Source: Streptomyces sp. CA-278952 (GTDB lineage Bacteria > Actinomycetota > Actinomycetes > Streptomycetales > Streptomycetaceae). From it: DNA of 64,000 nucleotides. The notes under the pieces were generated by a model that did not search any database, was not told where the DNA came from, and saw only the letters and a program-made list of their open reading frames with translations. Shown here in pieces: positions 3,757 through 9,521 of this stretch (its first letter is position 1; each line of letters opens with the position of its first letter). A program made the translations under genes and the position numbers. The stretch is from positions 5,084,001-5,148,000 of the forward strand of contig NZ_CP112880.1 of assembly GCF_028747205.1 (NCBI RefSeq), written 5' to 3'.

Positions 3757-4309
3757 GCGCCGCCGAGGGGGCCTCGCGCGCATGCACATGGCCGTCCAGC
3801 GGATAGGAGGGCGGCAGTGCCGGGATCACCCGCGCCAGCGCGTAACCGCACTTCTCCGCCACCCGGCACGAAGCCTCGTTGTCCACCTGGTGAAGCAACT
3901 CCAGCCTGGACAGGCCCTGTTCGGCGAACTCCGTGAACGCCCAGTCGGTCAGCGCCGTCAGCGCCCGTGACGCCACGCCCCGGCCGCGCGCCGCGGCCGT
4001 CGTCCAGTAGCCCACCTCCGCACAGTCGTTGCCCGGGTCCGGCCGCTTCAGCACGATGTTGCCGAGCGGTTCGCCGTCCCGCCCGCCGTCGGTCACGGCG
4101 AAGGCGAAGCGGGTGCCCGTCGCCCACCCCGTGCGCTGCGCCTCCAGCCAGTCGGCCGCCCCGTCCGCCCCGGAGACCTGGGTGGCCAGCCACCGCCGCA
4201 TCGCCGGATCCTCGTACGCCTCCAGCAGCGCCGACAGGTCGTCCTCGCGCCACCGGCGCAGCCGCAGGCCGCCGGGGCCGGGCACGGTGTCCCCGTCCCG
4301 GTGGTCCAT
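3689..4309 (-). CDS. GNAT acetyltransferase
   Basis: A 206-residue GNAT protein on the minus strand. It starts LRLRRWREDDLSALLEAYED and carries the acetyl-CoA-binding region EVGYWTTAAARGRGVASRAL and the late segment LLHQVDNEASCRVAEKCGY, as in RimJ/RimL-type enzymes. Start chosen at 4309 because a GGTGAGAG sequence lies upstream; the in-frame ATG at 4333 lacks one. The last 23 codons, a basic low-complexity tail (RPAGRRAEAAGTGGGRASRR), read through the end of the convergent gene, so the natural end may be an accidental extension. The substrate is unknown. Confidence 0.75.
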   Translation of the reverse strand: MDHRDGDTVPGPGGLRLRRWREDDLSALLEAYEDPAMRRWLATQVSGADGAADWLEAQRTGWATGTRFAFAVTDGGRDGEPLGNIVLKRPDPGNDCAEVGYWTTAAARGRGVASRALTALTDWAFTEFAEQGLSRLELLHQVDNEASCRVAEKCGYALARVIPALPPSYPLDGHVHAREAPSAALSRPAGRRAEAAGTGGGRASRR

Positions 4310-5204: not shown

Positions 5205-7586
5205 GTGGCCGCGCAGGATGCCGCTGTCGAATCGCTGCGGGACCGGGAAATCGGTGTCGAGCAGGAGCATCTCGACCGTGTTTATCACCGCCTCGAAGAG
5301 AAGATCGACGAGGCGGAATTTCTTATGAACGACGCCGTCAAACGCGGCCAGGTCGGTACCCCCGGCGCGCTCGCGGAGCGGGACGCCCAGGTGTTCCGGG
5401 CGGGGATCCACCTCAACCGGCTGAACAGCGAGTTCGAGGACTTCCTCTTCGGGAGGATCGACCTGCTGCTCGGCAAGGACGGGGAGCGCGGCCCGGACGG
5501 CGCGTACACCTCCGTCGAGCCGGCCGACGACACCGTGCGGGAGGACGCCACCGCCGACATCGCGGAGACGCTCCACATCGGCCGGATCGGGGTCCTGGAC
5601 TCCGACTACGCGCCGCTGGTGATCGACTGGCGGGCCCCGGCGGCCGCGCCGTTCTACCGCTCCACCCCGAAGGAGCCGGGCCGCGTCGTACGCCGCCGGG
5701 TCATCCGCTCCAAGGGCCGCAAGGTCCTCGGGGTCGAGGACGACCTGATGCGCCCGGAGCTGACGGCGTTCCTGGACGGCGAGAAGCTGCCGGTGATCGG
5801 GGACGGCGCGCTGATGGCGGCGCTCGGCCAGGCCCGCAGCCACACCATGCGGGACATCGTCTCCTCCATCCAGGCCGAACAGGACCTGGTCATCCGGGCC
5901 CCCGCCGCCTCCGTCACCGAGGTCACCGGAGGCCCCGGCACCGGCAAGACAGCGGTCGCCCTGCACCGGGCGGCGTATCTGCTCTACCAGGACCGGCGGC
6001 GGTACGCGGGCGGCATCCTGATCGTCTCGCCCACCCCGCTCCTGGTCGCGTACACCGAAGGGGTGCTGCCCTCACTCGGTGAGGAGGGCCAGGTCGCGAT
6101 CCGCGCGGTCGGCTCGCTCTCCGACGACGCGGCGGGCCTCCAGGGCGCGACCACCTACGACGAACCGGCGGTGGCCCGGATCAAGGGCTCCTCCCGGATG
6201 CTCCACGTGCTGCGCAAGGCCGCCCGGGGTGCGCTGGAACAGGGCCGGCCCGCGGCCCCGCGGGAGGAGGCGGGCCAGCTCTCCTTCGGCGAGGAGCCCG
6301 AGCAGCGCGGCGCCGCGACGACCCCGGACCGGCTGCGCGTCGTCGCCTTCGGGGGCCGGGTCGAGCTGGCGGCCGACGAGCTCCAGCGCATCCGGCACAA
6401 CGTCCTGGGCGGCACGGCCCCGGTCAATCTGCTGCGCCCGCGCGCCCGCAAGCTGCTGTTGGACGCCCTGTGGAGCAAGTCCTCCGGACGCGGCCGGTAC
6501 ACCGACCCCCAGCTGGTGGCGGAGCTGCGCTCGTCGTTCGACGAGGACGTCTCCACCGAGACCCCGTTCCTGGAGTTCCTCGACGCCTGGTGGCCCGAGC
6601 TGACGCCGCGCCGGGTGCTGGCCGCGATGGCCGACGAGCGACGCCTCGGCCGCTGGTCCCGGCGCATCCTCAACCAGGGCGAGGTGCGCCGCCTGGCCCG
6701 GTCGCTGAAGCGTCTCGACGCGGACGGCAGCGGGCCTCTCTCCGTCCACGACGTGGCGCTCCTGGACGAGCTCCAGGCGCTGCTCGGCACCCCGAACCGG
6801 CCCCGCCGGAAGCGCGAGGCGGACCCTCTGGACCAGCTCACCGGTCTCGAGGAGCTGATGCCGCAGCGCGAGGAGACCCAGTGGGAGCGGGCCGAGCGGC
6901 TCGCGGCGGAGCGCACCGAGTACGCGCACGTCATCGTCGACGAGGCGCAGGACCTCACGCCGATGCAGTGGCGCATGGTCGGCCGCCGGGGCCGGCACGC
7001 CACCTGGACGATCGTCGGCGACCCGGCCCAGTCCTCCTGGTCCGACCCGGACGAGGCGGGCGCCGCCCGGGACGAGGCGCTCGGCTCCCGGCCGCGCCGC
7101 CGCTTCACCCTCACCGTGAACTACCGCAACCCGGCGGAGATCGCGGAGCTGGCCGCGAAGGTGCTGGCGCTGGCGATGCCCGGCATGGAGTCGCCGGCGG
7201 CGGTCCGCTCGACCGGCGTGGTGCCCCGCTTCGAGCCGGTACGCGCGGGCGACCTGGCCGCCACGGTCCGCGAGGAGGCCGCGCGGCTGCTCGCGGAGGT
7301 GGACGGCACGGTCGGCGTGGTCGTCGCGATGAACCGGCGCGCCCAGGCGCGCGAGTGGCTCGCGGAGCTGGGGGAGCGGGTGGTGGCGCTGGGCAGCCTG
7401 GAGGCCAAGGGGCTGGAGTACGACGCCACGGTGGTCGTCTCGCCCGCGGAGATCGCGGACGAGTCCCCGGCCGGTCTGCGGGTGCTGTACGTGGCGCTGA
7501 CCCGGGCGACCCAGCAGCTCACGGTGGTCTCGGGGGAGCGGGACCTGCCGGACGAGGACGGGGTGCCGGACCTGCTGAGGGACTGA
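5205..7586 (+). CDS. helD: HelD-like UvrD/Rep-family ATPase (RNA polymerase recycling factor)
   Basis: A 793-residue superfamily 1 ATPase. An N-terminal helical arm (about 1-100, rich in EE/RL heptads) precedes the Walker A motif GGPGTGKTAVALHRAAYLLY at about residue 242. Walker B is HVIVDEAQDLTPMQW, and later helicase motifs include VNYRNPAEIAELA and LEAKGLEYDATVVV; it ends with VALTRATQQLTVVSG. This layout matches actinobacterial HelD, which binds RNA polymerase and dislodges it from DNA; some homologues (HelR) protect against rifamycins. GTG start is set by AGAAGGGGG at 5191-5199. I see no rifamycin-associated element upstream. Role inferred from family. Confidence 0.85.
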   Translation: MAAQDAAVESLRDREIGVEQEHLDRVYHRLEEKIDEAEFLMNDAVKRGQVGTPGALAERDAQVFRAGIHLNRLNSEFEDFLFGRIDLLLGKDGERGPDGAYTSVEPADDTVREDATADIAETLHIGRIGVLDSDYAPLVIDWRAPAAAPFYRSTPKEPGRVVRRRVIRSKGRKVLGVEDDLMRPELTAFLDGEKLPVIGDGALMAALGQARSHTMRDIVSSIQAEQDLVIRAPAASVTEVTGGPGTGKTAVALHRAAYLLYQDRRRYAGGILIVSPTPLLVAYTEGVLPSLGEEGQVAIRAVGSLSDDAAGLQGATTYDEPAVARIKGSSRMLHVLRKAARGALEQGRPAAPREEAGQLSFGEEPEQRGAATTPDRLRVVAFGGRVELAADELQRIRHNVLGGTAPVNLLRPRARKLLLDALWSKSSGRGRYTDPQLVAELRSSFDEDVSTETPFLEFLDAWWPELTPRRVLAAMADERRLGRWSRRILNQGEVRRLARSLKRLDADGSGPLSVHDVALLDELQALLGTPNRPRRKREADPLDQLTGLEELMPQREETQWERAERLAAERTEYAHVIVDEAQDLTPMQWRMVGRRGRHATWTIVGDPAQSSWSDPDEAGAARDEALGSRPRRRFTLTVNYRNPAEIAELAAKVLALAMPGMESPAAVRSTGVVPRFEPVRAGDLAATVREEAARLLAEVDGTVGVVVAMNRRAQAREWLAELGERVVALGSLEAKGLEYDATVVVSPAEIADESPAGLRVLYVALTRATQQLTVVSGERDLPDEDGVPDLLRD

Positions 7587-7646
7587 CGCCGAAGGGGCTC
7601 GGCGAGTCAACCCGGCGCGCGGGAATCACTTCTCGGGGGTCTTTGT

Positions 7647-7806
7647 TACCTTGGTAGTGGCACCGGCTCGATCCAAGCCCCCGGGCCCAACCTTCGTCGC
7701 TTCGAGCGACCACTTGCCGCGAGGCGAGCATGGCGGGTCGGTGCCACCCAACCGAAGAAGACAGACCCGCGTCACCTGCTGGTGGCGCGGGTCTGTTCTT
7801 GTTTTC
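7647..7806 (+). ncRNA. Candidate structured RNA with intrinsic terminator, unassigned
   Basis: A 9-bp exact stem (7657-7665 with 7739-7747) closes a multibranch domain; at DNA level TTGG/CCAA (7651-7654, 7748-7751) would add 4 bp across a 2-nt bulge. Inside are a hairpin GTCGCT-TCG-AGCGAC (7695-7709) and a hairpin CTTGCC-GCGA-GGCGAG with a GNRA tetraloop (about 7713-7728), plus a C/G-rich single strand. A 16-bp terminator stem (7761-7776 with 7781-7796, one G-T pair, loop TGCT) is followed by TTCTTGTTTTC. A TACCTT hexamer at 7647-7652 would place the transcript start near 7657. About 145 nt, either a free small RNA or a terminated malic-enzyme leader. I do not recognise the family. Confidence 0.6.
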
Positions 7807-7900
7807 CCGGGCTCCGCTCCCGTCTCCCGGGCTCTGTCTCGCTGTTTCCCGGGCTCTCTTCGCTGTCGCACGGGCTCTGTTTCCTGTTTGCCGGGCCGCC
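7805..7900. repeat. Five degenerate 20-22-bp repeats in the malic enzyme leader
   Basis: The core TCCCGGGCTC recurs at 7805, 7825 and 7847, and in weaker form near 7869 and 7889, each followed by a pyrimidine-rich stretch such as TGTCTCGCTGT. It lies between the RNA terminator and the operator-like inverted repeat before the malic enzyme gene. Confidence 0.65.
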
Positions 7901-7938: not shown

Positions 7939-7964
7939 GTAGTTTCTCGTATGGTGGAAACTAC
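7939..7964. promoter_or_regulatory. Operator-like inverted repeat upstream of malic enzyme
   Basis: GTAGTTTC (7939-7946) and GAAACTAC (7957-7964) are exact 8-bp arms around a 10-nt spacer that itself contains TATGGT (7950-7955), a possible -10 hexamer. A repressor dimer bound here would cover the promoter. The regulator is unknown. The malic enzyme start is 121 bp downstream. Confidence 0.5.
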
Positions 7965-8084
7965 TTTCCGAAAGACGGCAGTCATTACCGGCTACCAGCC
8001 AGTAGGTGCGACGATCGGGAAGCGTGTCCGGAGCGAAGGTTCCGGATGTGCGGCAATGAAGCTCAGGAAGCGAAGGACTCGGCC

Positions 8085-9521
8085 ATGGCAACGGCGCCCA
8101 GCGTCTCGTACTCGATGACGGTCAGGCTGGAGGTGCCCGCGAGCGGCACCGCGGTCTCCCAGCTCACCACGGCCGTGGAGTCCTCCGGCGGCTCGGTCAC
8201 CGGCCTCGACGTGACCGCCTCAGGTCACGAGATGCTGCGGATCGACGTCACCATCGCCGCGACCTCCACCTCGCACGCGGACGAGATCGTCGAAGGTCTG
8301 CGCGGCATCGAGGGGGTCACGCTGGGCAAGGTCTCCGACCGTACCTTCCTCATGCACCTCGGCGGCAAGATCGAGATGGCGTCCAAGCACCCCATCCGCA
8401 ACCGTGACGACCTGTCGATGATCTACACCCCCGGCGTCGCCCGGGTCTGCATGGCCATCGCCGAGAACCCCGAGGACGCGCGCCGCCTCACCATCAAGCG
8501 CAACTCCGTCGCAGTCGTGACGGACGGCTCCGCGGTGCTCGGCCTCGGCAACATCGGCCCGATGGCCGCGCTGCCCGTCATGGAGGGCAAGGCGGCCCTC
8601 TTCAAGCGCTTCGCCGGCATCGACGCCTGGCCGATCTGCCTGGACACGCAGGACACCGACGAGATCGTCGCGATCGTCAAGGCCATCGCCCCCGGCTTCG
8701 CCGGCATCAACCTGGAGGACATCTCCGCGCCGCGCTGCTTCGAGATCGAGGCCCGGCTGCGCGAGGCCCTCGACATCCCCGTCTTCCACGACGACCAGCA
8801 CGGCACCGCGATCGTCGTGCTGGCCGCCCTCACCAACGCCCTGCGCGTGGTGGGCAAGAACATCGGGGACGTACGGGTCGTCATGTCCGGTGCGGGAGCG
8901 GCCGGTACGGCCATCCTGAAGCTGCTCATCGCCGCCGGCGTCAAGCACGCCGTCGTCGCCGACATCCACGGTGTGGTGCACGCCGGACGCGAGGACCTGG
9001 TCGCGGCCGACCCCGACTCCCCGCTGCGCTGGATCGCCGACAACACCAACCCGGAGGGCGTCACCGGCACCCTCAAGGAGGCCGTCGTCGGCGCCGACGT
9101 CTTCATCGGCGTCTCCGCCCCGAACGTGCTGAACGGCGACGACGTCGCCGCGATGGCGGACGGCGCGATCGTGTTCGCGCTCGCGAACCCGGACCCCGAG
9201 GTCGACCCCGCGATCGCCCGTCAGACGGCGGCGGTCGTCGCCACCGGCCGCTCGGACTTCCCCAACCAGATCAACAACGTGCTGGTCTTCCCGGGTGTTT
9301 TCCGCGGCCTGCTGGACGCTCAGTCCCGCACCGTCAACACGGAGATGATGCTCGCCGCGGCCGGCGCGCTCGCCGACGTGGTCGCCGAGGACGAGGTCAA
9401 CGCGAACTACATCATCCCCTCGGTCTTCAACGACAAGGTGGCGGGCGCGGTCGCCGGAGCCGTCCGGGCCGCCGCGAAGGCCGCCACGGACACCGGAACG
9501 GCCCCTTCCGTATCCGTCTGA
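8085..9521 (+). CDS. ACT-domain malic enzyme (malate to pyruvate)
   Basis: A 478-residue enzyme. An N-terminal ACT-like regulatory domain (about 1-85, VSYSMTVRLEVPASGTAVSQ) precedes the catalytic part: MIYTPGVARVCMAIAENPED with the catalytic Tyr, VVTDGSAVLGLGNIGP, VFHDDQHGTAIVVLAALTNA (metal-binding Asp pair), and the nucleotide-binding motif VVMSGAGAAGTAILKLL. It decarboxylates malate to pyruvate using NAD or NADP. As I recall, the S. coelicolor orthologue SCO2951 favours NAD. Start set by GAAGGA at 8072-8077. The 500-bp leader holds the structured RNA, repeats and an operator, unusually elaborate for this gene. Confidence 0.9.
   Translation: MATAPSVSYSMTVRLEVPASGTAVSQLTTAVESSGGSVTGLDVTASGHEMLRIDVTIAATSTSHADEIVEGLRGIEGVTLGKVSDRTFLMHLGGKIEMASKHPIRNRDDLSMIYTPGVARVCMAIAENPEDARRLTIKRNSVAVVTDGSAVLGLGNIGPMAALPVMEGKAALFKRFAGIDAWPICLDTQDTDEIVAIVKAIAPGFAGINLEDISAPRCFEIEARLREALDIPVFHDDQHGTAIVVLAALTNALRVVGKNIGDVRVVMSGAGAAGTAILKLLIAAGVKHAVVADIHGVVHAGREDLVAADPDSPLRWIADNTNPEGVTGTLKEAVVGADVFIGVSAPNVLNGDDVAAMADGAIVFALANPDPEVDPAIARQTAAVVATGRSDFPNQINNVLVFPGVFRGLLDAQSRTVNTEMMLAAAGALADVVAEDEVNANYIIPSVFNDKVAGAVAGAVRAAAKAATDTGTAPSVSV

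Follow-up and report, generated by a model that had tools for sequence, protein, structure and literature searches.

A conserved structured RNA of the Actinomycetes, often preceded by a SigR/SigH-type promoter motif

The CcsR 'cuckoo' RNAs, RybB and MicA are trans-acting small RNAs that depend on stress sigma factors. The RNA described here shares with them a stress-sigma promoter motif, a stand-alone gene and multiple copies in some genomes, and its CCCCGG motif recalls the C-rich exposed motif of CcsR. Sequence and architecture are unrelated, however, and the phylum is a different one, so the likeness lies in the mode of working only. 6C RNA (Rfam family RF01066) is likewise actinobacterial and also has a C-rich unpaired stretch. 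It is described as two stem-loops with at least six C each (PMC8388888, in the part available). The RNA here has no such pair of C-rich loops: its loops end in GA or are of the GNRA type, its C-rich part is a junction, and it has no Rfam match. Ms1/scr3559 and 6S RNA are structured, stand-alone RNAs as well, and Ms1 is reported to be widespread in actinobacteria (PMC9130861, available sections). Ms1/scr3559 occupies another locus, and the RNA here has no Rfam match; unlike scr3559, it is absent from the RNAs named as RNA polymerase-associated in S. coelicolor in the accessible part of PMC11077062.

The RNA was found in a 64,000-nucleotide stretch of DNA from Streptomyces sp. CA-278952 (hereafter the window). 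A transcript of this region may already have been seen in one species, as scr2952 of Streptomyces coelicolor, which was reportedly catalogued by Vockenhuber et al. in 2011. The available text of PMC8388888 describes the expression of scr2952 as confirmed, reports its conservation in over half of the Streptomyces examined and states that it is in Rfam, yet the RNA here matches no Rfam 15 model; neither a class-wide family nor a SigR promoter nor a structure is given for scr2952 in the same text. The scr naming habit (scr4677, scr0792) would place scr2952 between SCO2951 and SCO2952, a position like that of the RNA here. SCO2951 is an NADP malic enzyme (PMC7244524) and SCO2952 is listed as HelD (PMC8655204), each in the portion of the source available, so scr2952 probably lies in the same intergenic region and, going by gene names and position, may be the same RNA. 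No published description of a class-wide family, its structure or a SigR link was found in the article passages searched; within that literature these three elements may be new, although the RNA may be an unnamed entry in a published small RNA list.

Locus and structure of the RNA

The gene lies on the plus strand between a HelD/HelR-type gene and a malic enzyme gene (Table 1), with both ends predicted from the promoter and the terminator. The top NCBIfam matches of the upstream product are HelR/HelD models, with scores under their cut-offs. The two neighbours appear to be orthologous to SCO2952 and SCO2951, respectively.

Table 1. Features of the RNA locus in window coordinates.
Feature	Position	Strand	Basis or remark
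Upstream neighbour, HelD/HelR-type RNA polymerase recycling motor	5205..7586	+	Pfam helicase domains; start codon uncertain
Promoter	7622..7652	+	direct reading; motif in Streptomycetaceae loci; published SigR/SigH consensus
Small RNA, ~147 nt	7657..7803	+	fold, conservation, covariation
P1, 5' side	7657..7675	+	7657-7670, AU bulge, CCA 7673-7675 paired with UGG 7731-7733
J1 junction, AGCCCCCGGGCCCAACCUUC	7676..7695	+	CCCCGG, putative seed or protein site
P2 hairpin, GUCGCU-UCG-AGCGAC	7696..7710	+	fold, alignment of relatives
P3 hairpin, CUUGCC-GCGA-GGCGAG, GNRA loop	7713..7728	+	loop pattern in relatives
P1, 3' side	7731..7747	+	fold, alignment of relatives
Intrinsic terminator: 16-bp stem, TGCT loop, T-rich tail	7761..7806	+	sequence reading, fold
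Downstream neighbour, malic enzyme	8085..9521	+	Pfam malic and Malic_M

The elements named in a preliminary description of this segment are all present. The 9-bp exact closing stem (GUGGCACCG/CGGUGCCAC) reaches 14 bp (7657-7670 with 7734-7747) once the adjoining G-U pairs are included; the two inner hairpins with GCGA and TCG loops are P3 and P2; the 16-bp terminator stem (7761-7776 with 7781-7796, one pair being G-U) is followed by the T-rich tail TCTTGTTTTC; and the predicted ends give an RNA close to the ~145 nt proposed. That description could assign the RNA to no class that it recognised, in agreement with Rfam 15, in which no family scores above its gathering threshold over the RNA. With E up to 10, nine and five matches were returned, all far below gathering (best E 0.51), and those over the RNA fell mainly on its terminator; in 27 distinct distant loci Rfam 15 reported only tRNAs at gathering. 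Elsewhere in the window lie a cobalamin riboswitch (RF00174, 61517-61682, plus strand, 38.1 bits) and a tRNA gene (RF00005, 27598-27669, minus strand).

The whole segment folds with -90.8 kcal/mol (z -7.1) and the core without the terminator with -49.3 kcal/mol (z -3.8); in neither case was any of 200 shuffles as low. Five relatives, folded likewise, gave z values of -2.6 to -3.7, and the minimum free energy folds of two of the six sequences (L073 and L184) differ from the consensus within the closing stem. Among 30 aligned Streptomyces loci, 76 of the 95 core columns are invariant. Across 46 diverse sequences (alignment A3), 93.4% of the pairing cells are paired and 181 cells carry double changes, versus a mean of 48 in shuffles and 19-40 with the partners slid. 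Both-sided changes occur at 22 of 30 pairs overall and, in the closing helix (helix 1), at every one of its 15 pairs; this helix covaries again at 15 of 15 pairs in 80 (A4) and 39 (A5) named loci among the matches listed. Most of P2 and P3 is prescribed by the pattern that retrieved the named loci, which leaves helix 1 as the only independent evidence there, and A3-A5 were aligned to the structure of the covariance model, towards which the alignment leans. The outermost pairs of helix 1 are frequently open, the first one in 25 of 78 A4 rows among the matches listed. Judged from the invariant core columns and from double changes far above shuffles, the structure is not chance.

The sequence of P2 and P3 is kept beyond the needs of pairing, and P1 varies freely. 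By a strict pattern, the P3 loop is GCGA, GAGA or GUGA in 44 of 46 A3 rows, and the P2 loop ends in GA in 44 of 46. CCCCGG in J1 is found in all 46 A3 sequences and, among the matches listed, in 78 of 80 A4 and 38 of 39 A5 loci, one A4 miss being a cut row. Its predicted unpaired probability is ~0.43-0.49, corresponding to a motif that is about half open in the ensembles. A tiny third hairpin, GCC/GGC (7677-7686), is predicted in J1 as well; it is doubtful and has no covariation support in the alignment, one of its three pairs being unpaired in 22 of 46 relatives. The covariance model R2, built from the 46 diverse sequences, omits this hairpin and two outer pairs of P3.

Distribution and genomic context

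The RNA matches in all 61 sampled genomes of the genus (BLAST, query 7610-7810), with a 95-nt core. In the family, 149 of 150 genomes, from 16 of 17 genera, contain a core recognised by a covariance model (R1). In the class, R1 detects it in 165 of 345 genomes and R2 in 201 of 345, representing 69 of 126 genera; these 201 include 33 from the genus of the window itself, and some few matches score weakly (E 1e-6 to 1e-3). Sampling of the phylum (159 genomes) yielded 10 matches, all from the same class, Actinomycetes, of which at least three sampled genomes had no match. At least 119 stretches of named genomes match the P2-P3 pattern, and all 119 listed hold the core, one of them cut at the stretch end and another (L122) identical to L106, a row in the alignment behind R2. 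Genera among the named matches listed include Nocardia, Rhodococcus, Gordonia, Microbacterium, Cellulomonas, Nocardioides, Rothia, Geodermatophilus, Kribbella and Jiangella. By these sequence matches the RNA is present across much of the class Actinomycetes, a spread that the preliminary description overlooked together with the SigR-type promoter. With R2 in the class sample, the small-genome family f25 gave no match and family f17 three weak ones; in family f4 only some of the genomes have the RNA.

Two or three matches each were counted in genomes G234, G282, G393 and G450 and in the genome of L092; three opposite-strand self-matches were dropped, at a stricter E-value. In L092 (3819-4094) two copies form a tandem pair, each preceded by GGAAY-N18-GTT. 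That the RNA belongs to a mobile element was considered and rejected: no phage match to it was found, and three Rhodococcus plasmids match it partially, with no annotated feature beneath the matches.

The preliminary description allowed for either an independent small RNA or a regulatory leader of malic enzyme. As a cis-regulatory leader or riboswitch, the RNA would use its terminator as an attenuator, and a closing stem that covaries while the parts inside it are conserved does resemble an aptamer. The order HelD-RNA-malic enzyme is moreover found in 55 of 69 Streptomycetaceae loci, in which malic enzyme lies 3' of the RNA on the same strand and its matched region starts 153-590 nt past the core. 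However, 13 of the 69 loci show neither HelD nor malic enzyme within flanks of ~1.5 kb or less, and neither gene is near the RNA in any of 41 distant matches (flanks mostly 4 kb). Neighbouring genes vary between lineages, and for 160 non-Streptomycetaceae matches a crude gene finder places the next downstream gene on the strand of the RNA 73 times (44 of them within 250 nt) and on the opposite strand 78 times, unlike the fixed place before related genes that marks a cis-acting leader. Since the downstream genes are not conserved, a malic enzyme leader or riboswitch is unsupported; it was rejected on gene context, and we consider it very improbable. The independent RNA is the option with support, from a promoter motif and a terminator of its own, from its occurrence at loci away from malic enzyme and from the 73/78 split of strands.

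A separate terminator is present in the window and in 24 of 30 Streptomyces loci, versus 33 of 600 random sequences. In other genera the criterion used here seldom detects one (11 of 42, and 11 of 80 among the matches listed; random again 33 of 600). Among 160 non-Streptomycetaceae matches, 42 have P1 followed by a T-tract, with at least four T within 9 nt, versus 603 of 20,000 random cases, and this arrangement suggests a shorter RNA of ~95 nt at these loci.

Other features were noted around the RNA. In three non-Streptomyces loci (L083, L087 and L088) it lies within a few kb of phosphate-transport genes, identified as PstB by NCBIfam in L083 and L088 and by eye in L087. In L089, the RNA is followed after 70 nt by a tRNA gene (4163-4235, plus strand) in the same orientation. 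Just 5' of the malic enzyme start in the window, the stretch 7944-8084 is itself conserved among 30 aligned Streptomyces loci: GGTAGGTG and the GAC and ATCGG of TACNNGCNGGTAGGTGCGACGATCGG (~7993-8018) reach at least 90% conservation, and TCTCGTATGGTGGAA, further upstream in the stretch, is conserved in the majority. It has no Rfam match and may be a promoter/operator or else another structured leader.

The promoter motif and its link to SigR/SigH

TACCTT, proposed as the promoter in the preliminary description, is present at 7647-7652 but is only part of the site. It sits inside GTTACCTT (7645-7652), which also holds the GTT (7645-7647) of a SigR-type promoter; GGAAT (7622-7626) and the 18-base spacer that completes it had been missed. 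The -10 consensus of the housekeeping sigma factor is TANNNT, and TACCTT, overlapping GTT, could by its sequence be a site for that factor too. Published motifs are GGAAT-N18-19-GTT for SigR (PMC9205884) and GGAAYR-N17-GTT for SigH (PMC4803200), as given in the available parts of these sources. The form GGAAY-N17-19-GTT, taken as the mark of the SigR/SigH regulon, is present at 7622-7647 and in many, not all, of the relatives.

The Streptomycetaceae set comprises the best 72 matches (L001-L072, not a random sample), reduced to 69 distinct loci by removal of duplicates. GGAAT-N17-19-GTT lies 5' of the core in 54 of the 69, and in 51 of these 54 the GTT is 11 bases from the core. GGAAN-N17-19-GTT was found in 28 of 44 diverse matches, three of them from Streptomyces, versus a background of 159 in 40,000. 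Among the matches listed, the GGAAY version occurs in 40 of 118 named non-Streptomyces loci, versus 92 of 60,000 random windows; by the genus in the record title, again among the matches listed, it is found in Microbacterium (14 of 14), Mycobacterium or Mycolicibacterium (5 of 6), Nocardia (7 of 11), Rhodococcus (2 of 2) and Gordonia (1 of 1), but not in Arthrobacter (0 of 4). The organism's own genome (8.2 Mb) contains five sites of the form GGAATN18-19GTTAN2-3T, one of them at this RNA, and the backward control contains none.

Because the motif is absent from 15 of 69 Streptomycetaceae loci and from 78 of 118 named loci among the matches listed, SigR control is not universal. Motif-less loci often have sequences like housekeeping promoters, as judged by eye. 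The Streptomyces -10 element GTTAnnnT suits both kinds of sigma factor, so that dual or switched control of the promoter is likely; SigR dependence of the RNA is a prediction from the motif. An RsrA match is present in 337 of 345 class genomes (277 above the cut-off), and this near universality makes the co-occurrence of the RNA with RsrA uninformative. In family f18 (e.g., G244, G358 and G421), the RNA lies ~25-27 kb from an RsrA-matching gene.

Proposed function

On balance we favour the reading that this is a stand-alone, trans-acting regulatory RNA, often a member of the SigR/SigH regulon, which may act by base pairing through CCCCGG. Sequence comparison shows a conserved core with a covarying stem, an own terminator in most of the Streptomyces loci covered, and a SigR/SigH-type motif at a nearly constant distance, present in the majority of the Streptomycetaceae loci compared and in about one-third of the other named loci listed. 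Action in trans is inferred from the spread, the promoter motif, the terminator and the non-conserved downstream genes. Thiol-oxidative stress, and heat too where the sigma factor is SigH-like, would free SigR from RsrA, and SigR-RNA polymerase would then transcribe the RNA. As the cell recovers, the RNA would modulate many mRNAs, or else a single shared partner. CCCCGG, presented between P1, P2 and P3, may form a short duplex with G-rich parts of mRNAs, for example ribosome-binding sites. Synthesis would be basal or constitutive at loci whose GTTAnnnT suits the housekeeping sigma factor as well, or whose GGAA element is lost.

This regulatory reading has to be weighed against two others. The RNA might be a housekeeping RNA under the primary sigma factor, to which the SigR match would be incidental or accessory. 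Its -10 GTTAnnnT contains a TANNNT hexamer, the motif is missing from the loci counted above, and several of those have housekeeping-like promoter sequences by eye; but GGAA-N18-GTT is far above background in separate lineages with a near-fixed spacing, and we regard this explanation as unlikely. The other alternative, to which we give more credence while still holding it to be the less probable, is that the RNA binds a protein, RNA polymerase or the ribosome as a decoy or scaffold, with the CCCCGG junction, the GA-ending P2 loop and the GNRA loop of P3 forming one compact recognition surface. The loops and the P2 and P3 stems are near-invariant across very diverse genera while P1 changes freely, and J1 complements are without excess, both of which would fit such a surface. 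On the other hand, the neighbourhoods looked at hint at no protein partner, and published S. coelicolor RIP-seq speaks against RNA polymerase binding, the accessible part of the report naming only scr3559 and scr0792 (PMC11077062), under conditions that may not have induced the RNA. As to the mode of action, base pairing through CCCCGG is tentatively rated highest and protein binding nearly as likely; the prediction that CCCCGG is only about half open and the lack of excess J1 complements both count against base pairing.

A broader proposal, which we put forward as possible, is that an undescribed RNA class of the Actinomycetes, ranging from Streptomyces to Nocardia and Microbacterium, serves the SigR/SigH thiol-stress response as an RNA arm, its invariant junction and loops binding one conserved partner (e.g., the translation machinery), and that it is a global regulator with a reach like that of 6S or Ms1. 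In the available part of PMC4921905, this response is described as protein genes plus tmRNA. If the proposal is true, the response would gain an RNA arm common to antibiotic producers and to soil, plant and host-associated actinobacteria, with one testable regulator in laboratory Streptomyces, a covariance model ready for annotation, and a defined question, namely, what the CCCCGG junction contacts.

A long antisense target of J1 was also considered and rejected. Near-complements of J1 (19 nt, up to three mismatches) in 16 genomes showed no excess, with 117 sites versus 217 in the backward control, and 10 of the 117 are the RNA gene itself. One near-complement site sequence recurs in four of the five genomes of family f91.
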